NCBI GenBank assembly: GCA_030539035.1
Contig: JAUNSU010000001.1
Coordinates: 24,641-88,640 of the forward strand
Length of the DNA stretch: 64,000 nt
Reading direction: 5' to 3'
DNA from: Planctomycetia bacterium
GTDB lineage: Bacteria; Planctomycetota; Planctomycetia; Pirellulales; Thermoguttaceae
Below, piece by piece: positions 43,605 to 64,000 of this stretch (its first letter is position 1; each line of letters begins with the position of its first letter). A program made the translations under genes and the position numbers. A model generated the notes under the pieces. That model saw only the letters and a list, made by a program, of their open reading frames with translations, was not told the origin of the DNA and made no database searches.

Positions 43605-44688
43605 GATAGAATTCTCTTTCTCTTGTCTTTGGAAATTTTCTGAAGGTCTATGAAATGGAGCGAAGTTCCGTTTTTTGAATCATTGCATGAGTCGTATCGG
43701 CGTACTTTTCCTCCGGACTTCCATTATATCAAGAGAATTTTTGAATGTCAACAAGAGTAAATTCGGACATTGGCTTTACAAAGAGGTACCTTCACCGCCC
43801 TGAGGAGTTCCCATTCCGCCCCGCAGATTTATTTTTTTGTTGGTTTAGCCAATAAGCGTTGCCGGGCGGCCGACCGCAAGCCCGTAATGAAGTGAGCGAA
43901 GCGAACGGAATTAGGGAACTTATAATTAGTGATTAGTGAATAGTGGGGGAACAACGTCTCCGGCGCTTGGTTAATGGGTGATTATCGTTTTTTAGAAATT
44001 TTAACCCTTTTACAGAGCGACGGCGTTACCGCCGGGTGTCCGGGACGAACACCCTCCCAACGCTCGGATTCCAACCGCACACACAAATCTTTGTTTTTCT
44101 CCACTTCCCCGGGTTAATGGGTGATTAACTCTTTTAAAAATTCTACGTTTATCGAGGAGGGCCCTCTGGTGTTGCCGTTGGGAAAGAGCGGCCGAAAGAC
44201 CAGCCTGGAACAGGCGGCACCATGCATAACCCCATGCGCAAGCATGGGGTATAGACCTCGCGCTCCAAGAGCATCGAAGATGCGGCACAATAAAAAAGAG
44301 TAAAACAAAAATCCTTGAGAAGAATTCGAATCACAACGTTTTTTAGAGATTTTAACTCTTCGACCACGGCGGCGTTGCCGCCGGGTGCCCGGAACGAGCA
44401 CCCTCCCAGCGCTCGGATTCAAACCGTGTTCCGGGAGCCTTGTTTTTCTCGGATTCCCCGGTCTTCTCAAAAAACATCGCTTTTCAAAAAAAACATCCGT
44501 GGTTATCCGTGAATATCCGTGGTTTCAAAAAGGGGATGGGACTCCTGGGACGACAGGAACAGCTGTGACAGCTGGGACTATTGAATCTGCGGTTTAAAAT
44601 CTCAACGCTTTTAGAAAATGAACATCGCTCGGGGTGTCCGGGACGATCGCCCTCCGTATGCGGCTGCGCCGCTGATCCCCGCTAAACA
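43605..44688. repeat. 1.1-kb non-coding cluster of dispersed repeats (families A, C, D)
   Basis: No gene is seen. Read from left: the GH2 upstream region, a family C piece (43820-43850, GCAGATTTATTTT), a family D copy (43875-43919), family A copies at 44015-44130 and 44362-44465, an inverted family C piece (44495-44530, CCGTGGTTATCCGTG) and a shorter family A relative (~44620-44700). The A copies share GCCGCCGGGTG and CGGATTC-AACCG. Their hairpins are GGGTGT/ACACCC at 44034-44053 and GGGTGC/GCACCC at 44383-44403. Short frames inside are by-products of the repeats. Confidence 0.75.
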
Positions 44689-51321: not shown

Positions 51322-53784
51322 ATGAACCTGCTGCTCGCTAAAAGTATTAAGAAAGACAATTTGAATCCTAATAATCAATACTGTACTTTACGTTCCCATT
51401 TACGATTGACATTTGTTGCCGCGAAGACAATTTATGAATTGACAGGAAAACGTCAAATTGAGGCAATCGGCCTTGATTCCAAAGATTATCTGATTCGGTA
51501 TAAAACGATTTTTCTTTTGGCTGCGGCAATTCATGATCTCGGCAAAGCGAACAACCATTTTTATGAAATGGTAAATAATGAAGCGGGCGGTCAATCAATA
51601 CGCCATGAATGGGTCCTTTATCTGCTTCTGCGTTTTTCGCCTTTAGGGAAATGGCTCAAAAAGTGCTTTCCAATGGAAACACGGGAAGAAGATTTTAATT
51701 GTTTGGTTTGGGCAGTTACCGGTCATCATCGTAAGCAACAAGGAAAAGAAGTGAATGATTATGGCCAAAATATGGAATTATTAATTGACCCTGCTGAATA
51801 CGATTTTTTTGAAATACTGAAGTGGATTGCTGGAATTGAAGAATTTGCACTTCCTTCCATTGATTTTTCCTGTTCTGATCTGTTAAATTCCAAAGTTTTT
51901 TCTTTTGGAACAATACGAGATTTCATCGCCTTGCCCGGAGGAGAAGGTCTAAGATCAAAAATACTCGAATTGTGTGATGAGTTTGAACCGGATGGTGAAG
52001 AAGAGGCTCTTTTTGTCAAGTCTGCTTTTATGGCTTCTGTTCGAAGTTCACTTATGGCAGCGGATGCCGCCGCTTCCGCTATGGGAGAAGCTTATTTGCA
52101 GGAGGATGTTGAAGAAGAAACGAGCCGAAGGCTTTCTGTTTATCTGGCTAATCTTCCCGATGTTATTGATTATCAAAAAATTATCACTCGAAAAGAGACA
52201 GAATTGAAAACAGCTTCGCATGATGATCTTGCACTTTCGCGCCGGAAATTTCAAAATCAGACAGCGGAATCGCAAAGCCGAATCACACTGTGTATTGCCG
52301 GCTGCGGCAGCGGTAAAACTTTTGCCGCTTGGAAGTGGGCACTCAATCATTGCCAGAAGGACGGGAATCGTCTTTTCTTTTGTTATCCTACTACCGGTAC
52401 CGCTTCCGAAGGTTTCATGGATTATTTGATCGATAATGGTGATTTGATTCACTCCAGATCGAAAATCGATAATAAGCTTTTAGAGAGACTTCGCGGACGT
52501 AAAAAGAATGAAGATGATCTTGATGTTGACAATGTAATAAAATCACTCGAATTCTGGAATTCACGCATCGCATGCTGTACGGTTGATACCGTTTTAAAAA
52601 TGCTCGTGGGCAGTTATTCCGGTCATTTGGTTTGGCCTGCTCTGGCTCAGGCTCATTTTATTTTCGATGAAATCCACTCTTATGATAATACCCTTTTTGA
52701 ACGTTTGCTCCAGTTCCTCGAAAATATCAAAGGGGTAAAAGTTTTGTTGTTGACCGCAAGTTTGCCCGATGAGCGTTTGAAAAGACTGCGTAAAGTTGTT
52801 AAAAAAAATAAAATCAACGGTATCCCCGAAAAAATCGAAATCATTAATGGTCCCGAAAAATGGGAAAAAGTTCTTCGATATCAAAAAATACAATCGTCTT
52901 TGGATCCGATTGACCTTGTTCTCGAAAAATATCAAAAAGGACAAAAAATACTGTGGATCTGTAATACGGTGGACCGTGCGATGAAAACAAGGGAAGAAAT
53001 CGTCAGCCGTCTGAAAGAAACCGATAATTATGGGAATTTTAACGAAAATAATATTCTTATATACCATTCCCGATTTAAATATAAGGATCGAGTAAAACGC
53101 CATGAAGATTGTATCAACGCGTTCAAAAGCAGGGAACCGGTCATTTGCATTACGACACAGGTCGCGGAAATGAGTCTCGATATTTCCGCAGATTTTTTGG
53201 TTACCGATTCCGCTCCGATCCCGGCTTTGATTCAACGTTTGGGGCGGCTCAACAGGAAAGCGTTATTCGACGATCCGAAGCCGTTCCTTGTTATTATTCC
53301 TGCCGACGATCAAGGAAAAACGCTTACTCTGCCTTATTCCTCTCATGATGATAACTGGCTGAAAAAAACTTCAATGTGGATCGACTTGCTTGGGGATAAC
53401 GCATTGTCTCAAAAAGATCTTACGGATTTTTGGCTCCAGGTTGGTGAAACAGGCCTTCCCGCGGATCAAACTTCTGATTGCGCCCTCCCCTGGATTGCTC
53501 CAGGACCTTGGATGAGTGAAAGTAATTTGAGAGATCCGTCTGTTGCCGTTTGTAATGTCCTTCTCTGTGAAGATATTGATTCCGTAAAACGTGATGGACC
53601 TGGAGAATATCTTATTCCAATGCCAAAATGTTCGAAATCTTTAGATAAATGCGACAAATATAACTGCTATATTGCAAAAAATGGAGGAGTTATCTTTTAT
53701 GATGAAAAAATCGGGGGAAAATGGATCAATGAGAAAAACGAAAAGGAAACGCCTGACGGCATCAAAGAAATTCAGATCTTTTAG
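51322..53784 (+). CDS. cas3: CRISPR-associated nuclease-helicase Cas3
   Basis: The 820-residue protein has an N-terminal HD nuclease domain (H26; H71-D72 in HDLGK; later VTGHHRKQQ) and a superfamily 2 helicase (Walker A AGCGSGKT with K332, DEIH at 449-452, LTASLPDERL, QRLGRLNRK motif VI). It is recruited by the crRNA-effector complex to unwind and shred target DNA. It has its own promoter and is separated from the other cas genes by 252 bp. Its last ~10 codons coincide, on the opposite strand, with a repeat-like sequence of the hidden mini-CRISPR. Codon and base use are AT-richer than the genes to the left. Confidence 0.95.
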   Translation: MNLLLAKSIKKDNLNPNNQYCTLRSHLRLTFVAAKTIYELTGKRQIEAIGLDSKDYLIRYKTIFLLAAAIHDLGKANNHFYEMVNNEAGGQSIRHEWVLYLLLRFSPLGKWLKKCFPMETREEDFNCLVWAVTGHHRKQQGKEVNDYGQNMELLIDPAEYDFFEILKWIAGIEEFALPSIDFSCSDLLNSKVFSFGTIRDFIALPGGEGLRSKILELCDEFEPDGEEEALFVKSAFMASVRSSLMAADAAASAMGEAYLQEDVEEETSRRLSVYLANLPDVIDYQKIITRKETELKTASHDDLALSRRKFQNQTAESQSRITLCIAGCGSGKTFAAWKWALNHCQKDGNRLFFCYPTTGTASEGFMDYLIDNGDLIHSRSKIDNKLLERLRGRKKNEDDLDVDNVIKSLEFWNSRIACCTVDTVLKMLVGSYSGHLVWPALAQAHFIFDEIHSYDNTLFERLLQFLENIKGVKVLLLTASLPDERLKRLRKVVKKNKINGIPEKIEIINGPEKWEKVLRYQKIQSSLDPIDLVLEKYQKGQKILWICNTVDRAMKTREEIVSRLKETDNYGNFNENNILIYHSRFKYKDRVKRHEDCINAFKSREPVICITTQVAEMSLDISADFLVTDSAPIPALIQRLGRLNRKALFDDPKPFLVIIPADDQGKTLTLPYSSHDDNWLKKTSMWIDLLGDNALSQKDLTDFWLQVGETGLPADQTSDCALPWIAPGPWMSESNLRDPSVAVCNVLLCEDIDSVKRDGPGEYLIPMPKCSKSLDKCDKYNCYIAKNGGVIFYDEKIGGKWINEKNEKETPDGIKEIQIF

Positions 53785-53851
53785 TAAAGACCTTGATACA
53801 CCAACAAAATAAATGCTCAACGCCTCTCGGCTATCTGTATAGGACAATAAT
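53747..53851 (-). ncRNA. Degenerate mini-CRISPR: crRNA-like guide RNA targeting the cas6 promoter
   Basis: On the minus strand three parts follow each other. The first repeat-like part (53851-53813) keeps GGCGTTGAGCA of the array repeat, a GCC-GAGA-GGC hairpin, and an 8-nt handle TTGAGCAT (array: TTGAGCAC). A 37-nt pseudo-spacer (53812-53776) follows, within the array's 33-39-nt range. The second repeat-like part (53775-53747) matches the first 30 nt of the array repeat at 26 positions with two mismatches and two single deletions, keeping the hairpin TGCC-GTCA-GGCG. Pseudo-spacer nt 1-20 (TTATTTTGTTGGTGTATCAA) match the plus strand at 53975-53994, differing only at positions 6, 12 and 18; beyond 20 the match is lost. 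A minus-strand TATAAT (53894-53889) lies upstream without a clear -35. Confidence 0.85.
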
Positions 53852-53927
53852 CGAATACGATGCACTGTAAAACTGCTTTCACCCAAGTATTATACCCTGT
53901 TTTGCAAAAAATAAAATATTTATCGAA

Positions 53928-54011
53928 AAAAATCGATTTTTATGCTTGCAAATAACGAAAATGAGATTATAATGTTATTATGTTGATGTATAAATAAACT
54001 ACTTTGTGTTT
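53928..54011 (+). promoter_or_regulatory. cas6 operon promoter and guide-RNA target site
   Basis: TTGCAA (53946-53951), 16 bp, TATAAT (53968-53973) is the only good promoter before cas6. A 14-bp palindrome AAAAATCGATTTTT (53928-53941) lies just upstream of the -35. The target of the pseudo-spacer, 53975-53994 (TTATTATGTTGATGTATAAA), begins one base after the -10 box and covers the expected start site. A full-length effector footprint would reach ~54011. The bases next to the target on its 5' side are ATG (53972-53974), the presumed PAM side. Binding here would block transcription of cas6-cas8-cas7-cas5 and perhaps further. Confidence 0.8.
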
Positions 54012-54036
54012 ATAAAAATTACGAAAGGAGGTTTTA

Positions 54037-54669
54037 ATGATTGTTGATGTAAAATTTTTACTTCAAGCGCAAGGAAAAGTGATTCCTGCCGATCATGCTT
54101 ATTCTCTCTACTCGGCGATATCGAAAATTGTCAAAACGATCCACGAGGAAGGAGATATAGGTATTCATTCTATTACCGGGACGCAAACCGGGGATCGAGG
54201 ACTGTTGCTGGGCAAGTCCAGTTGTCTTGTCCTTCGTCTGGATTCCGATCGAATCAGTGAAATTCTTCCGTTAGCGGGAAAGTGTCTGGCGGTAGAGGGA
54301 ACCGTATTGCCTGTCGGAATTCCGTCTGTTTATGTTTTATCACCATCGCCTTTTTTGCGAAGCCGGCTTGTTACCATTAAAGGTTTTATGGAAGAACCTG
54401 TATTGAAAGACGCAATACTTCGTCAATGTGAAGAAATGGAAATTTCAAACTCGATTAACATTGCGCTCACTAAAAGACGTACTCTGCGGATTCACAATAA
54501 GGATATTGTCGGTTATGAAGTCTATCTTTCAAATTTGACGGAAAGTGAATCCATTCGACTTCAGGAAAAAGGGCTTGGCGGTCGGCGAAAAATGGGCTGC
54601 GGAATCTTTCTTCCTTGTCAGAGGATTCCCGTCAGGTCTGAACTGAATGATTTCGAAGGAGGTAAATAG
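54037..54669 (+). CDS. cas6: CRISPR repeat endoribonuclease Cas6, MYXAN type
   Basis: The 210-residue RAMP-fold protein has an N-terminal IPADHAYSLYSAISK, which holds a conserved histidine of this Cas6 branch, and the glycine-rich loop GLGGRRKMGCGIFLP at the C-terminus. It should cut each repeat at the base of its hairpin, leaving an 8-nt 5' handle TTGAGCAC. ATG 54037 follows AAAGGAGG. It is first in a tight operon, 3 bp before cas8, and lies under the promoter that the mini-CRISPR guide matches. Confidence 0.88.
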   Translation: MIVDVKFLLQAQGKVIPADHAYSLYSAISKIVKTIHEEGDIGIHSITGTQTGDRGLLLGKSSCLVLRLDSDRISEILPLAGKCLAVEGTVLPVGIPSVYVLSPSPFLRSRLVTIKGFMEEPVLKDAILRQCEEMEISNSINIALTKRRTLRIHNKDIVGYEVYLSNLTESESIRLQEKGLGGRRKMGCGIFLPCQRIPVRSELNDFEGGK

Positions 54670-54672
54670 CTT

Positions 54673-56361
54673 ATGCCTGTGAAAAATTCTTCCAATACGA
54701 AAAAAACAGCATCCAAAGAAAAAACAAAAAAGGAAAAGCCAGCGTTGAAATCCGCTCCTGTTTCTGTTGTTCTTTCGTTTGCGACTCCAGGTATGTCCGC
54801 TTTGCATCGGACAGGCTTGGGAGGGTTGGCCGCTGTCCTCCATTGTCTCGATAAAATTAAAGAAAAAATCGATGAAGAAGAGCCGGAATTTCCTTTCGAC
54901 AGTCCTCTTTGGAGAGAGGATTTTGCATGGAAAATCGACAAAAATTCGGTCGAATTGAATTTTGGCAAACCGGAAAACGCCGCTTTGTTTTTGGAATGGC
55001 TCTTTCAATTCGCGTTTCAAATTAAAGATGAAATGATTTTTTTGCCGGCCCTGTACGGAGTGAAAAATGGAAAAATTAATGTAATCCCCATCGAAGTGAG
55101 ATCTCGTTTGCAAAAAGGGATTACCTTGACATTTTTACAGCATGGGCAAACAAGAAAATTAGGATCTGAACAGACGAAAGAATACGAGGTTGACGGAAAA
55201 AAAATCTCTTATGAGCATAAAGATTGTTTGTCCTATACTCACCAGACAGCGTGGAAAGAATGGGTCAATAATAAAGGAGAGTTGGTTCTGAAAAATTACT
55301 CTGTTCAAGGGCCAATCCACCCCGGCGCAGTCGTAAGGCATGCCGCTTATACATCCTCTTCTCTGATTGCACAACCGCTTGAGTTGGTTTTGCCGCTGAT
55401 ATTCGCTTTAGTCGGAACTCTTTCTGTTCCCATCAATAATGGGGTGGGTGTCCTGATTATCCCCTATATTGACGATCTCGTCTCTTTTTCTCAAAATTGG
55501 CACCGTGTCTGTCCAAAAACTGTTAAAACTTCCATGATTGCAGGATTGGGAGACGCATCGATCCAGTTTGAACTCCGGCGCCGAGGGGAATCGTTAAAAA
55601 ATCGAGTAAAAATTCCCGGCTGTGAAGCAGTCTGTTTTCGCCCAATGCCATGGGCAACTCAACAGAAATCCCGTTGTGATACTTTGACGCTGGAACATAT
55701 TGATCCCGATATTCTCGATTTGTACGACAGAGTTTTAAGTTATTTTCCCCCCCGTCTTATTGAAAACAAAAAAAACAAGAAAGAGGGAAAAGGAAAAAAT
55801 GCCGTTGTTACAGAAACGGTGGAATACTTTTTGGCAGACTCCGTCGTGCGCCCGTTTATCGCGGATAATCTTGCTCGGGGAAATTATTGGTTCAAGGGAT
55901 TCACTAAACAAATGACAGCTTACGACGCAGTCTCGAAAAAACCGCTTCGTGAGAAAATCAAATTTGAAAAGGAAGGATTGAATAAAATGATCAATGATGA
56001 AAAATTGGATTGGAAACTTGAAGGGGCCCAATCTGTAGTCTTAGCTGTTCAGGAATCTTTAAAGTTTCTTTATGGGAAAAAGATTGCTGAATCCAAAAAT
56101 CTTTCTCAAGAAGGTAAGAATAATCGTCTTGAAGGTGAGTATGAAAAATGGCGTATTGCTTTTTCTGGGGCAAAAACACAGGAACAATTTCGTTTCGCTT
56201 TGTCCGATATGTTCAGTCGGGCGAAAGGCATTCCCGTACTTCAAAATGATTGGCAATCTGTTATGAAAATTGTTGTTCAGGATTGGCAGCTCGCACGTGA
56301 TTTGGCTCTGATCGGATTGGCAGCCTATAAAGGAAAGAATGAAGGAAAGAAAGAGGAATGA
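54673..56361 (+). CDS. cas8: Large effector subunit Cas8, DevT/Csx13-like
   Basis: The 562-residue protein resembles the DevT/Csx13 large subunit of Dev-type systems, including an N-terminal SFATPGMSALHRTGLGGLAA and a central WKEWVNNKGE region. Its role is to recognise the PAM and hold the 5' end of the crRNA in the effector. No nuclease motif is seen. The start is an ATG preceded by AGGAGG and overlapping the cas6 stop region by design (3-bp gap). In Myxococcus xanthus the homologous devT is needed for development. Cas8 proteins vary greatly, so identity rests on order and the N-terminal segment. Confidence 0.8.
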   Translation: MPVKNSSNTKKTASKEKTKKEKPALKSAPVSVVLSFATPGMSALHRTGLGGLAAVLHCLDKIKEKIDEEEPEFPFDSPLWREDFAWKIDKNSVELNFGKPENAALFLEWLFQFAFQIKDEMIFLPALYGVKNGKINVIPIEVRSRLQKGITLTFLQHGQTRKLGSEQTKEYEVDGKKISYEHKDCLSYTHQTAWKEWVNNKGELVLKNYSVQGPIHPGAVVRHAAYTSSSLIAQPLELVLPLIFALVGTLSVPINNGVGVLIIPYIDDLVSFSQNWHRVCPKTVKTSMIAGLGDASIQFELRRRGESLKNRVKIPGCEAVCFRPMPWATQQKSRCDTLTLEHIDPDILDLYDRVLSYFPPRLIENKKNKKEGKGKNAVVTETVEYFLADSVVRPFIADNLARGNYWFKGFTKQMTAYDAVSKKPLREKIKFEKEGLNKMINDEKLDWKLEGAQSVVLAVQESLKFLYGKKIAESKNLSQEGKNNRLEGEYEKWRIAFSGAKTQEQFRFALSDMFSRAKGIPVLQNDWQSVMKIVVQDWQLARDLALIGLAAYKGKNEGKKEE

Positions 56362-56450: not shown

Positions 56451-57374
56451 ATGACGCTTCATGTTTTTGCTAATATCGTTACACCTTACGGAACCGCTTC
56501 GAACAATCGCGGAGAAAAAGGGGGAAATACGACAACACTTCAAAAGTTGCTTTGGAAATCCCAGGTTCACACCACCGTCAGCGCGGAATCCATCCGATTT
56601 GCCATTCGACGTCTTTTCGCGGAAAACGGTGAAAAAACAAATCGCTTTTGGGATGATTCAGAACAGGCAAATGCCTGGATTGATCCCGAATTTAAAAGTT
56701 GGAGCGAAGGAAAGAATGCGACATTTATCGATGATGATCTGTTTGGATATATGAGAGCAGACGCGCCTAAGGAAGAAGCAAAAGCCGGTACAGCAACCAT
56801 TCGTCGGGGAATTCTGGAAATTACCCGTGCGGTCTCTTTGACACCTTGGAGCGGCGATGTTTCCTTTAACGCCGCTTCTCCAGGTGCTGCTCCTTCCGCC
56901 GCTAAAAACAAAAAGGATCCCGAATCCAAAAAACAAAATCCTGTTCCTTATAACGCGGAAATTCATGCTACTCGATATCAGTTTGGATTGGCAATGACGC
57001 CGGAAAAACTGGCCGATCCTTCCCGGGCCGCAAAAGCATTGAATACCATTGGCACTTTGCGTTCTGTCGCAGGAAATCATGGACGCTTTTTGTATGATTT
57101 CGCTCCGGAAATGATCGTGATTCGAATTACGGACGATCCCGCTCCGAGAATCCTGTATTGCTTCGATACCGAAGATGGCGGTAAAACCGTTTCAGCTGAT
57201 TCTTTGATCGCACGAATTGATTCCGGTGATGTTCTTGCCAGTGAACTCTTCGTTGGCGTTTCGGATCTCTCGCTTCCAATCGTCGAATCACTTAAAAATA
57301 AGGGAGTCAAAGTATTTGGTGTTCGAAAAGCCATTGCCGATGCAAGTGATTCCATTCTGAAAGGCATGAAATAA
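56451..57374 (+). CDS. cas7: Effector backbone subunit Cas7, DevR-like
   Basis: The 307-residue protein has the DevR/Cst2 pattern: LHVFANIVTPYGTASNNRGEKGG at the start (only part is conserved), ESIRFAIRRLF, EIHATRYQFGLAMTP with the family's R-Y-Q-F, and LNTIGTLRSVAGNHGRFLYDF. Cas7 subunits polymerise along the spacer part of the crRNA; their thumbs flip out every sixth nucleotide, which is the basis for reading the mini-CRISPR match. AAGGAG precedes ATG 56451. An 89-bp gap separates it from cas8. Confidence 0.88.
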   Translation: MTLHVFANIVTPYGTASNNRGEKGGNTTTLQKLLWKSQVHTTVSAESIRFAIRRLFAENGEKTNRFWDDSEQANAWIDPEFKSWSEGKNATFIDDDLFGYMRADAPKEEAKAGTATIRRGILEITRAVSLTPWSGDVSFNAASPGAAPSAAKNKKDPESKKQNPVPYNAEIHATRYQFGLAMTPEKLADPSRAAKALNTIGTLRSVAGNHGRFLYDFAPEMIVIRITDDPAPRILYCFDTEDGGKTVSADSLIARIDSGDVLASELFVGVSDLSLPIVESLKNKGVKVFGVRKAIADASDSILKGMK

Positions 57375-57386
57375 GGAGGTTGTTTT

Positions 57387-58043
57387 ATGATCGGCATAAA
57401 AGTGTCGCTTCCTATCGCCAGCTTTCGAAAAGGAATGGCGCGTGAGTACCTTGAAACACATGAACTGCCGCCGCCCTCTACGTGTTATGGTTTTCTCTTG
57501 TCCCTTGTCGGTGAAACGGACAGATTAGCCCATACAGGTGTGCGAATCACGGCGGTTGTTTGCGGTAATCCCGCAATAAGTGTTGTTTTAAGAACTGTCT
57601 GGAGGGTAAAAAAGACTCCGCTCGGAAGTTCCGGTAATACTCGTCCGGATTATCAGCAGCTGATGACAAATATCGAGTTGATTATTTGGCTTGACAGTTC
57701 CGGCGAAATACTGGACAAAGAAAAAATGTCCTTGGAAGATCGCGTACGGCAGGCATTTGATCCGGAACGTCGAGGAAGTATTGATCGTTTTAGCGGTCTT
57801 TCTCTTGGTGAAAGCACTCATTTGATCAATGATATTTCAATATACCATCGCGCAGATGATACGGAGGATAATCATTCTGAATCTGCTAAAATATTTCTCC
57901 TTGACAAAGAGGGAACAACAACACTTCCGGTTTGGGTTGATCATGTAGGCGGTGAAAAAACTCGATACGTTACAGGAAATATTATTTTCGGAGGTTTGAC
58001 GCCTCCTGATCCAAAATTCATGCCCATTATTGATTGGCAATGA
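57387..58043 (+). CDS. cas5: Effector subunit Cas5, DevS-like
   Basis: The 218-residue RAMP protein starts IGIKVSLPIASFRKGMAREYLETHELPPPSTCYGFLLSLVG, the DevS/Cmx5 N-terminal pattern that binds the crRNA 5' handle (only short motifs should be relied on: SFRKGMAREY and PPSTCYGFLLSL). AAGGAGG lies before ATG 57387, 12 bp after cas7. In M. xanthus devS is implicated in negative control of its own operon. Confidence 0.88.
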   Translation: MIGIKVSLPIASFRKGMAREYLETHELPPPSTCYGFLLSLVGETDRLAHTGVRITAVVCGNPAISVVLRTVWRVKKTPLGSSGNTRPDYQQLMTNIELIIWLDSSGEILDKEKMSLEDRVRQAFDPERRGSIDRFSGLSLGESTHLINDISIYHRADDTEDNHSESAKIFLLDKEGTTTLPVWVDHVGGEKTRYVTGNIIFGGLTPPDPKFMPIIDWQ

Positions 58044-58189: not shown

Positions 58190-59881
58190 ATGTCATTACT
58201 CAATAATGGTTGTGCTTTACAATCAGAGCATGAAGAGCCGCTTCGTATCATGGCCCTTCATGCTCTGGATTATTGCCCCAGGCTTTTTTATTTGGAAGAA
58301 GTGGAAGAAATTCGGGTGGCGGACGATCGCGTTTATGCTGGCCGTGCGCTTCATGAAATTGTCGCCCCGGATAATTTTGACGGAAAATTGATGACGCAAG
58401 TTGAGTTGACAGGCGAAAAACTCGGTTTGACGGGGAAAATCGATTGTCTCTGTCGCCGGAATGGAACACTGATCCCTTATGAACACAAAAGGGGAAAATC
58501 TCGCCGAATTGACGGTAATCCAGCTGCCTGGTCCTCTGATGCCATTCAGGTATCCGCATACGGTCTCTTATTGGAAGAGGCTCGTAAAATGGAGGTCAAA
58601 GAAGGGAGAATTCGATATCATGCTGACAACCAAACCGTCCGTGTGCCGCTTGATGACACCATGCGAAAAACTGTGTTCGATCTGATCGCGGAAGGAAGAC
58701 GGCTTCGTGCATCGACAGAACGTCCGCCTGTAACCCCTCATGAAAAAAGATGTATCCGGTGTTCTCTTGCGGCAGTCTGTTTACCGGAAGAAGAAAGGCT
58801 TGCATTGGATTCATCGCGTAAGACTCTCCGACTTTTTCCTGAAGATCGTCAAAAATCAACCGTTCATGTCATTACGGCCGGGTCTCAAATAAGCAAAACG
58901 GGTGAATCATTTCTTTTAACTTCGGCGGAAGGCCAGAAAAAACACTATCCAGTTGCGGACGTAGACAGTTTTGTGATTGACGGTTTTTCACAGATTACAA
59001 CACAGGCGCTTCAACTTTGTGCGGTTAATGATATTTCTGTTCATTGGCTCACTTCATCTGGTTCGTATATGGGAACTTTTGCATCAGGCACCGGTCCTGT
59101 TCAGCGTCGGATTCGTCAGTACAAGGCCTTGAATGATGAATCCATTCGTTTAAGACTGACACGTCTTTTGGTTCAATCGAAAATTGAACAAACTTTAAGA
59201 TATATTCTGCGATGTACGAGAGAATGTTCGGAAAATAATGTCCGGCGTCCCGATAAAGATATAAGATTGGCAGTTAGTCGAATTCGGTCCCTTTTGCATG
59301 ATCTCGATAAAACGGATAATGTTGATGCGATACGCGGTTTGGAAGGACTTGCGGCAAAAGAATATTTTGGCCTTTTTCCCCATTTATTAAAAGAAAATAT
59401 TCCAGAAGAAATGAGGCCGCAAGGGAGATCAAGACGTCCTCCTAAGGATCGTTTTAATGCAATACTCAGTTATCTTTATACTCTTTTATATACCACTGTT
59501 CTGCAATCGACCTTGACAGTTGGATTGGAACCGGCATTTGGATTTTATCATACTCCGAGGAGTTCAACACCACCGCTTGTTCTTGATTTAATGGAATTGT
59601 TTCGTTTGATAGTCTGTGATATTCCGCTTATTGGTTCTATAAACAGACTGCATTGGAATATCAGAGAAGATTTTGATATTACGGGCGAAAAAGTTTGGTT
59701 GTCCAAAACCGGAAAAAGGAAAGCGGTAGAACTTTATGAACGAAGGCTTCAGGATAAATGGAAACATTCAGTCATTGGATATTCCCTGTCTTATGCTCGG
59801 CTCATCGAATTGGAAGTACGTCTTCTTGAAAAAGAATGGACCGGTGAAGAGGGGCTTTTTGCGAAATTTCGTATTCGATAA
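58190..59881 (+). CDS. cas4-cas1: Cas4-Cas1 fusion integrase
   Basis: The 563-residue protein joins Cas4 (1-~205) and Cas1 (~220-563). The Cas4 part has C29 (ALDYCPRLFY) and C188, C191, C197 (CIRCSLAAVC) for an iron-sulfur cluster and the RecB-type EHKRGK motif. The Cas1 part has the acid site in LEGLAAKEYF and the histidine/aspartate segment GFYHTPRSSTPPLVLDLMELFR (read as GFYHTPRS then LDLMELFR). Cas4 trims prespacers and checks the PAM, and Cas1 integrates them at the leader end. The fusion is typical of MYXAN-type and some I-G loci. AAGGA precedes ATG 58190. Confidence 0.93.
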   Translation: MSLLNNGCALQSEHEEPLRIMALHALDYCPRLFYLEEVEEIRVADDRVYAGRALHEIVAPDNFDGKLMTQVELTGEKLGLTGKIDCLCRRNGTLIPYEHKRGKSRRIDGNPAAWSSDAIQVSAYGLLLEEARKMEVKEGRIRYHADNQTVRVPLDDTMRKTVFDLIAEGRRLRASTERPPVTPHEKRCIRCSLAAVCLPEEERLALDSSRKTLRLFPEDRQKSTVHVITAGSQISKTGESFLLTSAEGQKKHYPVADVDSFVIDGFSQITTQALQLCAVNDISVHWLTSSGSYMGTFASGTGPVQRRIRQYKALNDESIRLRLTRLLVQSKIEQTLRYILRCTRECSENNVRRPDKDIRLAVSRIRSLLHDLDKTDNVDAIRGLEGLAAKEYFGLFPHLLKENIPEEMRPQGRSRRPPKDRFNAILSYLYTLLYTTVLQSTLTVGLEPAFGFYHTPRSSTPPLVLDLMELFRLIVCDIPLIGSINRLHWNIREDFDITGEKVWLSKTGKRKAVELYERRLQDKWKHSVIGYSLSYARLIELEVRLLEKEWTGEEGLFAKFRIR

Positions 59882-59895
59882 GAGGTATTGACAAT

Positions 59896-60183
59896 ATGAC
59901 GAAAAAATGGTATCTTGTAGCATATGATGTTCGTGATCCCAAAAGACTCCGGCAAACAGCAAAAAAGCTTTTAGGTTATGGGACTCGGGTACAATACAGT
60001 CTGTTTCGATGCCGATTAACTGCGGAAGATTTGGAACGTTTAAATTGGGAGCTGATAAAGATCCTTTCAGAGGAAGATGATCTTTTGATTATTGAGGTGT
60101 GTGATCGCTGTGCAGCCAAGATAAGAGATAGTTCAGGAAGGACAGATTGGGATTCCGAAGTAAAAACTTACGATTTTTTTTGA
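59896..60183 (+). CDS. cas2: CRISPR adaptation protein Cas2
   Basis: The 95-residue ferredoxin-fold protein begins KKWYLVAYDVRDPKRLRQTAKKL, the Cas2 signature (shared short motif YDVRDPKR), then RVQYSLFRC and LLIIEVCDRC. It bridges two Cas1 dimers in the integration complex. It starts 14 bp after cas4/cas1 and ends at the leader. It is of normal length. Confidence 0.93.
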   Translation: MTKKWYLVAYDVRDPKRLRQTAKKLLGYGTRVQYSLFRCRLTAEDLERLNWELIKILSEEDDLLIIEVCDRCAAKIRDSSGRTDWDSEVKTYDFF

Positions 60184-60451: not shown

Positions 60452-63400
60452 CTGAAGTTTCTATGATGCCGTTAAGGCGTTGAGCACATATTAAAAAAAC
60501 GCCGTAAAAACAAGGATATTTGTCTGAAGTTTCTATGATGCCGTTAAGGCGTTGAGCACATTCACACGAGGGAAAAACTGCTGATTCAGGGCCTTCTGAA
60601 GTTTCTATGATGCCGTTAAGGCGTTGAGCACAAAAAGGATTTGGCGCTTTTTTTAATCCCCTTGATCTGAAGTTTCTATGATGCCGTTAAGGCGTTGAGC
60701 ACATATTTCTTTATGTGATATTGCTTTTAATTCCCCTGCTGAAGTTTCTATGATGCCGTTAAGGCGTTGAGCACATTTTGGATATCAGAGATATTTGCAG
60801 CTTATGCAGGCTGAAGTTTCTATGATGCCGTTAAGGCGTTGAGCACACTCCATGTTTGACGAAACTTTTGAAAGAGATGTAACCTGAAGTTTCTATGATG
60901 CCGTTAAGGCGTTGAGCACGAGTATATCTGCGTTGATTATTATTTTGATAATCGCGTCCTGAAGTTTCTATGATGCCGTTAAGGCGTTGAGCACGCTCCA
61001 GTGTCGGTAACGGCTTTAGCAAGATTTCCGACTGAAGTTTCTATGATGCCGTTAAGGCGTTGAGCACATTTTATATCATTTTTGCGGATCTAAAACTTTT
61101 ACCCTGAAGTTTCTATGATGCCGTTAAGGCGTTGAGCACTTCTGGGCGCTGTTGTTAGCGGTCGAAACCAAAATCTGAAGTTTCTATGATGCCGTTAAGG
61201 CGTTGAGCACAACTACTCGATTTTGCGAAAAATCTTTCTTTTTCTGAAGTTTCTATGATGCCGTTAAGGCGTTGAGCACATCTTGATCCGATCTTGATTC
61301 CAGTTGACAAACTCCCTGAAGTTTCTATGATGCCGTTAAGGCGTTGAGCACTTCTTGGATCTTTCTTGATCTTGATATTGATCTTGCTGAAGTTTCTATG
61401 ATGCCGTTAAGGCGTTGAGCACATCGAGCCGGACCGGGATCGACTGAGCTTCAACGACCTGAAGTTTCTATGATGCCGTTAAGGCGTTGAGCACCTATTA
61501 TTATCACGATTGGGGATCGCCCCAATCACTGAAGTTTCTATGATGCCGTTAAGGCGTTGAGCACGCACAGACACAGATTAATCAGATTATTGGATTATTC
61601 TGAAGTTTCTATGATGCCGTTAAGGCGTTGAGCACATAAACAGTGAGTACCAACGAAATAAAACATTTCCTGAAGTTTCTATGATGCCGTTAAGGCGTTG
61701 AGCACATAAACAGTGAGTACCAACGAAATAAAACATTTCGCCTGAAGTTTCTATGATGCCGTTAAGGCGTTGAGCACAAGGAAGTTCCCACAGTGGAAAA
61801 CCGCTCATTTGTTCTGAAGTTTCTATGATGCCGTTAAGGCGTTGAGCACATACTATTATAACGATTGAGGGAGGTGCCCTCAACTGAAGTTTCTATGATG
61901 CCGTTAAGGCGTTGAGCACATAACGCTTTTTTGTGGGAGGTCAAACAAAATTTTCTGAAGTTTCTATGATGCCGTTAAGGCGTTGAGCACATTTTTTTGT
62001 TTTGTTTTGCGTACTTGCCGTGCACGGCCTGAAGTTTCTATGATGCCGTTAAGGCGTTGAGCACATTCGAACACCCTTCCCAGATCGCTCTGTCTTGGAA
62101 CCTGAAGTTTCTATGATGCCGTTAAGGCGTTGAGCACGACACTACTACTTATAATCAGATCATTAACTTGCTCGACTGAAGTTTCTATGATGCCGTTAAG
62201 GCGTTGAGCACGACACTACTACTACTTATAATCAGATCATTAACTCTGAAGTTTCTATGATGCCGTTAAGGCGTTGAGCACATTTCGATATTAACACGAT
62301 TGACGTCCAGTGGTTTCTGAAGTTTCTATGATGCCGTTAAGGCGTTGAGCACCTGTTATTATCACGATTGAGGGAGGTGCCCTCAATCACCTGAAGTTTC
62401 TATGATGCCGTTAAGGCGTTGAGCACCTACTATTATCACGATTGAGGGAGGTGCCCTCAATCTGAAGTTTCTATGATGCCGTTAAGGCGTTGAGCACCTG
62501 GAGTTGTGGCGGGATCACTACGCGGCGACTGATCCCTGAAGTTTCTATGATGCCGTTAAGGCGTTGAGCACAAAACGTTTAAGGACAAGGCCGGGAATAC
62601 CTGGACCTGAAGTTTCTATGATGCCGTTAAGGCGTTGAGCACTGCCAGAAGAAACTCCGACTTCAGGGCCGACAATAACTCTGAAGTTTCTATGATGCCG
62701 TTAAGGCGTTGAGCACTAAATCAAACAACCAGCGTTGGAACAGATCCAAACTGAAGTTTCTATGATGCCGTTAAGGCGTTGAGCACAAAAAGACAGTCCC
62801 GTATCGCGGGACGAGCAGAACCTGAAGTTTCTATGATGCCGTTAAGGCGTTGAGCACAAAAAAGAAAGCAAAGATAAAACAGTGGAAAAACTTCTGAAGT
62901 TTCTATGATGCCGTTAAGGCGTTGAGCACAAGTGGGCAAGACAATATGGATATATTGTCAATGATCTGAAGTTTCTATGATGCCGTTAAGGCGTTGAGCA
63001 CAGTGTAAGACATGCAATCTCTAAACAAGATGGAAGTCTGAAGTTTCTATGATGCCGTTAAGGCGTTGAGCACATAACAATACGGTACACCTTTCTTTTA
63101 CTATGCCCTGAAGTTTCTATGATGCCGTTAAGGCGTTGAGCACGTGTTAATCTTGCTCTGTTTGCCCGTGAAATGTTTGGCTGAAGTTTCTATGATGCCG
63201 TTAAGGCGTTGAGCACTCAGTTATACAATTATTTTTGACTTTTTTATATCTTCTGAAGTTTCTATGATGCCGTTAAGGCGTTGAGCACCTCCCAGTCCTT
63301 CGGTTCGATCCCGTCCACGCCTACCTGAAGTTTCTATGATGCCGTTAAGGCGTTGAGCACAGTTGCAAGTACCTCTCGCATCCAAAGTCGTAGCCGTCTG

Positions 63401-64000
63401 AAGTTTCTATGATGCCGTTAAGGCGTTGAGCACAGAGTAAAACTTGAACGGTGCTGCGAGACGGATTGCGGCTGAAGTTTCTATGATGCCGTTAAGGCGT
63501 TGAGCACATGAAACGCGGGAAAAGGTCCACGCCGAAATTGCTCTGAAGTTTCTATGATGCCGTTAAGGCGTTGAGCACAACATCAAAATCAAACAAAATC
63601 GGCAGATGCAGATTCTGAAGTTTCTATGATGCCGTTAAGGCGTTGAGCACGCACAGACACAGATTAAGACTCAGACACAGAAACTGACTGAAGTTTCTAT
63701 GATGCCGTTAAGGCGTAGAGCACATACTGTTATCACGATTGGGGGGCGGCCCCCAATCCTGAAGTTTCTATGATGCCGTTAAGGCGTTGAGCACATAAAA
63801 TTTTATACTTGACTTAAAAAAACATCAAACTGAAGTTTCTATGATGCCGTTAAGGCGTTGAGCACACTTACTTCCCCGCCGATCATTACGCGCTCTGACG
63901 GCTGAAGTTTCTATGATGCCGTTAAGGCGTTGAGCACCAAGCAAAAAAATACAAAAAAGTCAAAAATAATTGTCTGAAGTTTCTATGATGCCGTTAAGGC
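60452..64000 (+). CRISPR. CRISPR array, 49 complete 36-nt repeats plus a partial one, 49 spacers
   Basis: Repeats begin CTGAAGTTTCTATGATGCCG and end GGCGTTGAGCAC. The first is 60452-60487; the last complete one is 63902-63937; a fiftieth starts at 63974 and is cut by the window end. Spacers are 33-39 nt, mostly 35-37. All repeats read alike except the one at 63688-63723, where position 30 is A instead of T. The stem TGCC-GTTAA-GGCG is closed by a U-G pair on + but would be a C-A clash on -, and the leader promoter reads +, so crRNAs are read on +, with an 8-nt handle TTGAGCAC. Thirty-one of 49 spacers begin with A. Related spacers are at 61495, 61850, 62353, 62427 and 63724 (hairpin family); 61636/61706; 62138/62212; 61565/63651. 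Confidence 0.99.

Follow-up and report, generated by a model that had tools for sequence, protein, structure and literature searches.

A 64,000-nucleotide (nt) stretch of DNA from a Planctomycetia bacterium of the family Thermoguttaceae (contig JAUNSU010000001.1, positions 24,641 to 88,640; hereafter the window) carries a complete type I-MYXAN clustered regularly interspaced short palindromic repeats (CRISPR)-Cas system, in which a 252-nt gap separates cas3 from the downstream genes cas6-8-7-5-4/1-2. On the minus strand, at positions 53747-53851, a mini-CRISPR is found that, judging from its sequence, very probably encodes a CRISPR RNA (crRNA)-like guide that directs the I-MYXAN Cascade onto the cas6 promoter and represses its own operon, i.e. 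an autorepressor of the CreR (cas-regulating RNA) type. Directly seen are the repeats, the match of the guide, the ATG that flanks the target, the fact that no second target exists in the assembly, and the pair's recurrence with co-varying sequences; the transcription of the guide, its cutting by Cas6, its loading into Cascade and its binding are inferred.

The element comprises two degenerate repeats, psiR1 and psiR2, and a spacer-like guide, psiS (Table 1). An initial annotation of this DNA had described a repeat-like pair bracketing a 37-nt pseudo-spacer; the coordinates and letters given there for the mini-CRISPR and its target were the same on re-reading, and the two repeats proved to be the best repeat-like sites in the 60 kb outside the array. 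When both strands of window positions 1-60440 were aligned to the array repeat, psiR2 and psiR1 ranked at the top and the next best place had a score of 12. The 37 nt of psiS are the usual length of an array interval (33-39 nt in 46 of the 47 intervals of the window array, and 108 nt in the remaining one). The handle TTGAGCAT is retained in psiR1, psiR2 is the sole match of a terminator scan, and the five stem pairs are all kept in 13 of the 25 elements of this kind. The repeat core GATGCCGNNAGGCGTTGAGCAC is present, with variants, in arrays of several phyla.

The first 20 nt of psiS agree with positions 53975-53994 at 17 of 20 positions, with mismatches solely at 6, 12 and 18, just as had been claimed. 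None of 200 shuffled spacers equalled the match of psiS to the surrounding region (p = 0.005, the floor of this test). Two features absent from the initial annotation are the ATG placed directly 5' of the target and a minus-strand TATAAT at 53894-53889. A search for ATG followed by 20 nt, leaving the 6n positions free and allowing up to three mismatches, returned two sites in the 4.245-Mb assembly, the cas6 promoter (no mismatch) and psiS itself (three mismatches); the promoter site is the only target of the guide in this assembly. The target starts one base past the TATAAT at 53968-53973. The description of this promoter as the only good one holds in that it is the sole plus-strand promoter-like match in 53500-54200, but promoter-like matches in this region are no commoner than in shuffled sequence (3 found, 2.8 expected).

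The same arrangement was sought in relatives gathered via Cas6, for which 80 of the 110 confirmed genome-contig matches were taken. In a first pass, where targets were sought without regard to the protospacer adjacent motif (PAM), 57 candidates from 40 loci were obtained; at a score of at least 11 and with an ATG flank, 16 of the 57 matched their own locus, compared with none of 3152 cross-locus pairings, and when the ATG condition was dropped the figures were 17/57 and 17/3152. The second pass, which required the ATG and used a lowered repeat threshold, took in every type I-MYXAN locus with 250 nt or more of upstream sequence (113 loci, of which 101 are distinct) and gave 268 candidates, among which 19 own pairings, in 19 different loci, reached a score of at least 11, versus 22 of the 70,762 cross-locus pairings. 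A chance match is rejected by the shuffles together with these own- and cross-locus counts. The 19 pairs from the second pass and three added by hand (L023, which has GTG, L152 and L088) form a strict set of 22, which excludes the weaker pairs of L074, L117, L108 and L029 (the last being one contig with L121). By phylum, with part of the placements made by kinship or genus, the strict set includes Planctomycetota (12), Myxococcota (4), Gammaproteobacteria (3), Cyanobacteria (2) and a metagenome-assembled genome labelled Bacillota (1), and its match lengths are 14-23 nt.

The element is antisense to cas6 in 14 of 14 Planctomycete loci with a pair, and it lies on the sense strand in the gammaproteobacterial, cyanobacterial, Bacillota-labelled and Myxococcus loci. 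This orientation bears on the very improbable alternative that the repeat-like hairpins are mere Cas6 sites in the cas leader, at which Cas6 trims its own messenger RNA. Sense-strand repeat-like hairpins without a seed match do stand before cas6 in the cyanobacterial loci L068, L074, L078 and L082, but in the window and the other paired Planctomycetes the element is carried on the strand opposite to cas6, and is therefore outside the cas6 leader. Another cyanobacterial locus, L071, likewise shows a sense-strand repeat-like hairpin before cas6 with no clear seed match, a possible Cas6 site.

Two loci with cas6 from the same genus as the window, L022 and L023, also have this mini-CRISPR; their guides and promoters are of other sequence, yet guide and promoter match in each (mismatches at 6 and 14 in L022, and at 6 and 18 in L023), and their targets are placed directly downstream of promoters with 11/12 matches. 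Because the three genus-mates differ in sequence and yet each guide matches its own promoter, guide and promoter have changed together. It is thus hardly credible that the element is a functionless piece of a decayed array or a duplicated promoter fragment, an idea that could draw on the degenerate psiR1, on the lack of a handle in psiR2 and on the further array pieces present in the assembly; besides the genus-mates, it is opposed by Myxococcus loci in which positions 7, 8 and 11 are changed jointly in guide and target, and by the concentration of mismatches at 6, 12 and 18, while a duplication would not account for the ATG that precedes 21 of the 22 strict targets or for the GTG before the last. 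The relic or duplicated fragment is accordingly rejected by the co-variation of guide and target. The initial annotation had looked to related loci for a repeat-like pair whose 6n-spaced match tracks the promoter; such a pair is kept, with differing sequences, in 22 loci of five phyla. Opposite psiR2 (53747-53775), the plus strand holds the PDGI codons of cas3, and L022 and L023 share a PDG(I/V) end.

Within the strict set, mismatches are found at position 6 in 16 of 22 loci, at position 12 in 17 of 22 and at position 18 in 9 of 12. Pooled over the 22 loci, 42 of the 56 cells at these three positions are mismatched, while the rest of positions 1-18 have 18 mismatches in 320 cells; 42/56, or 75%, is the rate for an unconstrained base. 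Since the 6n positions had been masked in the original search, a search without this masking was added, and in all 20 cases it recovered the site found before (two of the 20 being one contig). In the Planctomycete and cyanobacterial targets position 6 is mostly A, and the guide base there is not A. Position 9 is mismatched in L053, L067, L085, L152, L154, L157 and L088, and in none of the other 15 strict loci. The 5' flank of the target is ATG in every strict locus except L023, whereas the rate of this flank at the best cross-locus sites is 1.0%. ATG is the top PAM predicted for myxobacterial B-type spacers against IMG/VR (36.84%, with TTG at 13.16%), a smaller phage set gives 17.39% for ATG and 21% for TTG, and ATG is used in the MxI-B interference plasmids (PMC11237760); the I-B2 system PmcCAST also has an ATG PAM (PMC12719977).

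The mechanism that we propose would proceed as follows. A minus-strand transcript would start from the TATAAT at 53894-53889, Cas6 would cut it at the psiR1 stem, and the 3' end of the guide would fall at psiR2 or at its T-rich terminator-like end. Carrying the handle TTGAGCAT, the guide would load into Cas8-7-5, and the loaded Cascade would bind from the ATG through about nt 20 (~17 bp). Pairing that ends near nt 20 would be too short for the recruitment of Cas3, so that RNA polymerase would be blocked and the chromosome left uncut; a steric block of the cas6 promoter is the proposed mode of repression. In Haloarcula hispanica, spacers of up to 24 bp repress without interference (PMC10989794), which is consistent with the match lengths (14-23 nt) in the strict set. 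As has been reported for CreR, the operon would be released from repression when canonical crRNAs or anti-CRISPR proteins draw Cascade away.

Several points weigh against an autorepressor guide. The stem of psiR1 (GCC-GAGA-GGC) has three G-C pairs only and folds no better than shuffled sequences (z -0.19), and the putative promoter of the guide gene lacks a clear -35 region, its TATAAT being absent from the promoter-scan list. A strict pair is missing in 94 of the 113 loci, where loss, divergence or another location is possible, and some loci, namely L086 (perfect core, p 0.50), L068 and L074, have an isolated repeat of good quality but no matching site. The mismatch at position 9 in 7/7 gammaproteobacterial and Myxococcus loci is not accounted for by the 6n rule. 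When the spacers of the window array were compared with phages for a PAM, no match gave an interference PAM; one spacer has an 89.7% match to a Stenotrophomonas phage, and the 5' flank of that match is not ATG.

The closest known systems are of two kinds. CreR RNAs (Liu et al. 2023, Cell Host Microbe), which the initial annotation had placed among haloarchaeal I-B systems, are assigned by reviews to types I-B, I-E and V-A (PMC12737573, PMC13131331). As far as these sources describe them, CreR loci resemble the window in having a mini-CRISPR beside the cas genes, a partial match to a cas promoter and a Cascade-guided autorepression (predicted for the window), whereas the window differs in its type, I-MYXAN, in the ATG motif and in the position of the element, which in Planctomycetes is antisense over the end of cas3. 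MYXAN is classed under I-B by some authors (PMC8730458). In the second kind, the CreA guides of the CreTA modules of H. hispanica and Halobacterium hubeiense, bases 1-5 and 7-11 pair beside a PAM, 6 and 12 do not, and psiR1 is more degenerate than psiR2 (PMC8501985, PMC9458426); the sixth-base rule was shown by mutation for H. hubeiense CreA (PMC8501985). The order psiR1-psiS-psiR2, the PAM, the free positions 6 and 12 and the more degenerate psiR1 are shared with the window; in contrast to what is described for CreA, the target promoter of the window drives cas genes rather than a toxin, the flank is ATG rather than TTC, and up to 17 bases are paired instead of 10. A more distant likeness is to the long-form trans-activating CRISPR RNA (tracrRNA) of Streptococcus pyogenes Cas9 and to the Francisella small CRISPR-Cas-associated RNA (scaRNA), in which a short-match guide represses a promoter without cutting, as proposed here; these are class 2, Cas9 systems, unlike the type I system of the window (PMC8730458).

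The likeness to CreA raises the possibility, which we regard as improbable, that the element belongs to a CreTA/CrePA module, in which the guide restrains a toxin that is released upon loss of Cascade; the toxin would be an RNA or peptide, as yet unrecognised, within the 62-nt leader of the window, DevI in Myxococcus and a small protein in the Gammaproteobacteria. The anatomy does match the haloarchaeal creT-creA operons, devI lies between target and guide in L154, L152, L157 and L088, and small open reading frames (ORFs) occupy this place in L067 and L085, but the target promoter of the window leads directly to cas6, with 62 nt and no separate ORF before the start codon. A plain CreTA module is rejected for the window on the ground that no ORF lies between target and cas6. 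A target promoter driving a toxin, as in CreTA/CrePA, is not found there, since only cas6 follows; what is found are the marks of CreR, namely degenerate off-array repeats, a match of the 5' part of the spacer to the promoter of its own cas genes, an adjacent PAM-like ATG and no toxin gene.

In several Planctomycetes, L046 among them, target and cas6 are separated by another gene. Short genes occupy this place in L046, L012, L125 and L108; that of L046 matches sigma-70 region 4 (Pfam), and the other three are similar by eye only. The small ORFs between target and guide have 77 codons in L067 and ~78 in L085, and such ORFs are also present in L053 (Thiocapsa roseopersicina DSM 217); these three loci may be small-protein modules resembling devI. 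A gene for a WYL regulator is found upstream in L053 and L067.

The window shares its subtype, its effector proteins and a self-repressed operon (self-repression being predicted for the window) with the Dev operon of Myxococcus xanthus. No guide is described for Dev in the literature covered; the pair is known here from devI-bearing relatives. Twenty Myxococcus-family loci were compared, none of them identified as M. xanthus. A first look at these loci was empty because psiR1 is too degenerate there for the threshold used; the Dev pairs are thus post hoc, those of L154 and L157 having been found with the lowered threshold and the ATG condition, and those of L152 and L088 (Myxococcus sp. RHSTA-1-4) by reading the upstream sequence. 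In these four loci the element lies between a devI-like ORF and cas6, and includes a degenerate psiR1 ending in GGTGTTGAGCAA, a guide of the form TTGGTG...CAGGT that matches ATG-flanked DNA at, or just ahead of, the devI start, and a psiR2-like remnant. The L154 ORF is 93% identical to the "CRISPR-Cas system negative regulator DevI" of Myxococcus virescens. A tblastn search with this ORF, at E values up to 1, detected devI in the same four loci only; the 16 remaining loci lack a match to devI and, likewise, the pair was not found in them. In each of the four, 0 of 2000 shuffles were as good as the observed match, and against real 26-mers p was 0.0005-0.0027. At positions 7, 8 and 11, guide and target are changed together in L088 relative to the other three loci. 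The gene order in L154 is a SAVED gene, devI, cas6, cas3, cas8, cas7, cas5 and cas4-cas1, and a SAVED-domain gene adjoins the MYXAN cas genes in L095 as well as in L154. L174 is an orphan mini-CRISPR of two repeats that lies apart from cas6 and whose guide resembles those of dev; a search of its genome for ATG-flanked targets gave no exact one, but four matches with three mismatches each, one of them being the element itself.

An unlikely explanation of the Myxococcus similarity is that guide and target do not pair but encode one and the same peptide, LVSAQV or LVLVQV. In the four dev loci the mismatches within the matched stretch do fall at the third base of codons and, read in the ATG frame, are synonymous, but in L152 and L154 this frame does not enter that of DevI, repeat-like sequence lies on the flanks of the element, and the gammaproteobacterial targets are on the opposite strand, with an in-frame stop in L067; a shared peptide would, moreover, not bear on the window.

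DevI is encoded at the putative target promoter of the Myxococcus dev loci; it is known from the literature as a sporulation inhibitor, and its toxicity is putative. It reportedly has 40 residues and inhibits sporulation. On balance we lean towards Dev being a CreA-guided module that developmental genetics uncovered ahead of its guide, in which the guide between devI and cas6 would lead DevTRS (Cascade) to the devI start, loss of Cascade would free DevI, a tame CreP-like sporulation blocker, and the same architecture would regulate I-MYXAN systems in five phyla. Where devI is present, this device would keep both devI and the dev operon repressed. What weighs against this extension to Dev is the mismatch at position 9 in all four dev loci, the synonymous nature, in one frame, of the mismatches in the matched stretch, and published accounts: one review, which calls the mechanism of dev autoregulation unknown, reports that Cas6 and Cas3 activity are dispensable for it (PMC8616872), and another invokes an antisense RNA (PMC8730458). 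The earlier suggestion of a general mechanism for Dev autoregulation is therefore upheld in part: the four Myxococcus-family loci (of 20) that have devI are also the ones with the pair, but the reported dispensability of Cas6 and Cas3 speaks against it, although a second Cas6 may be why the dev cas6 seemed dispensable.

Table 1. Features of the type I-MYXAN locus and of the predicted guide element in the window.
Feature	Position	Strand	Remarks
cas3	51322..53784	+	TIGR01587; stop at 53784
psiR2, second degenerate repeat	53747..53775	-	repeat score 20; antisense within cas3 3' end; hairpin then T-rich stretch
psiS, spacer-like guide, 37 nt	53776..53812	-	overlaps cas3 end
psiR1, first degenerate repeat	53813..53851 (best part 53813-53835)	-	repeat score 13; 3' end = handle TTGAGCAT
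Possible -10 (TATAAT) of guide RNA gene	53894..53889	-	~50 nt upstream of psiR1 stem; inferred
cas6 promoter TTGCAA-16-TATAAT	53946..53973	+	10/12 promoter matches; -10 at 53968-53973
ATG, PAM-like motif 5' of target	53972..53974	+	same flank in 21/22 strict loci
Target (protospacer-like)	53975..53994	+	17/20 matching guide
cas6/cmx6	54037..54669	+	TIGR02807
cas8a1/cmx1 (DevT type)	54673..56361	+	TIGR03485, TIGR03486
cas7/DevR	56451..57374	+	TIGR02585, TIGR01875
cas5/DevS	57387..58043	+	TIGR02586
cas4-cas1 fusion	58190..59881	+	TIGR03983
cas2	59896..60183	+	TIGR01573
CRISPR array	60452..64000	+	48 exact repeats in window; reaches window end

At least one additional array piece is present in the assembly, on another contig. 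Several spacers of the window array (60452-64000) are near-variants of one another (e.g. ...ATTATCACGATTGAGGGA), like a repeated sampling of one target; the pattern of one spacer family was searched in viral contigs and none was found. The array gave matches in 3 of 99 relatives, the source genome among them, which read as array pieces rather than protospacers. Elsewhere in the window, at 44018-44655, a GC-rich, inverted-looking 60-nt stretch is 88% alike at 44018 and 44367 and appears partly again at 44632.

The initial annotation knew of no guide of this sort in MYXAN/Dev-type systems, and none was met in our literature search, which did not cover Liu et al. 2023, where a prior listing is possible. 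The kind is already known from CreR and CreA; its occurrence in type I-MYXAN appears to be new. RNA-guided self-repression would in this way be extended to type I-MYXAN systems, and the pairs provide independent evolutionary evidence that every sixth base goes unread and that the PAM is ATG. For Dev autoregulation they offer a concrete guide and target which, if true, would explain a long-unsolved self-repression and would show a developmental inhibitor to follow the same logic as CRISPR addiction modules.

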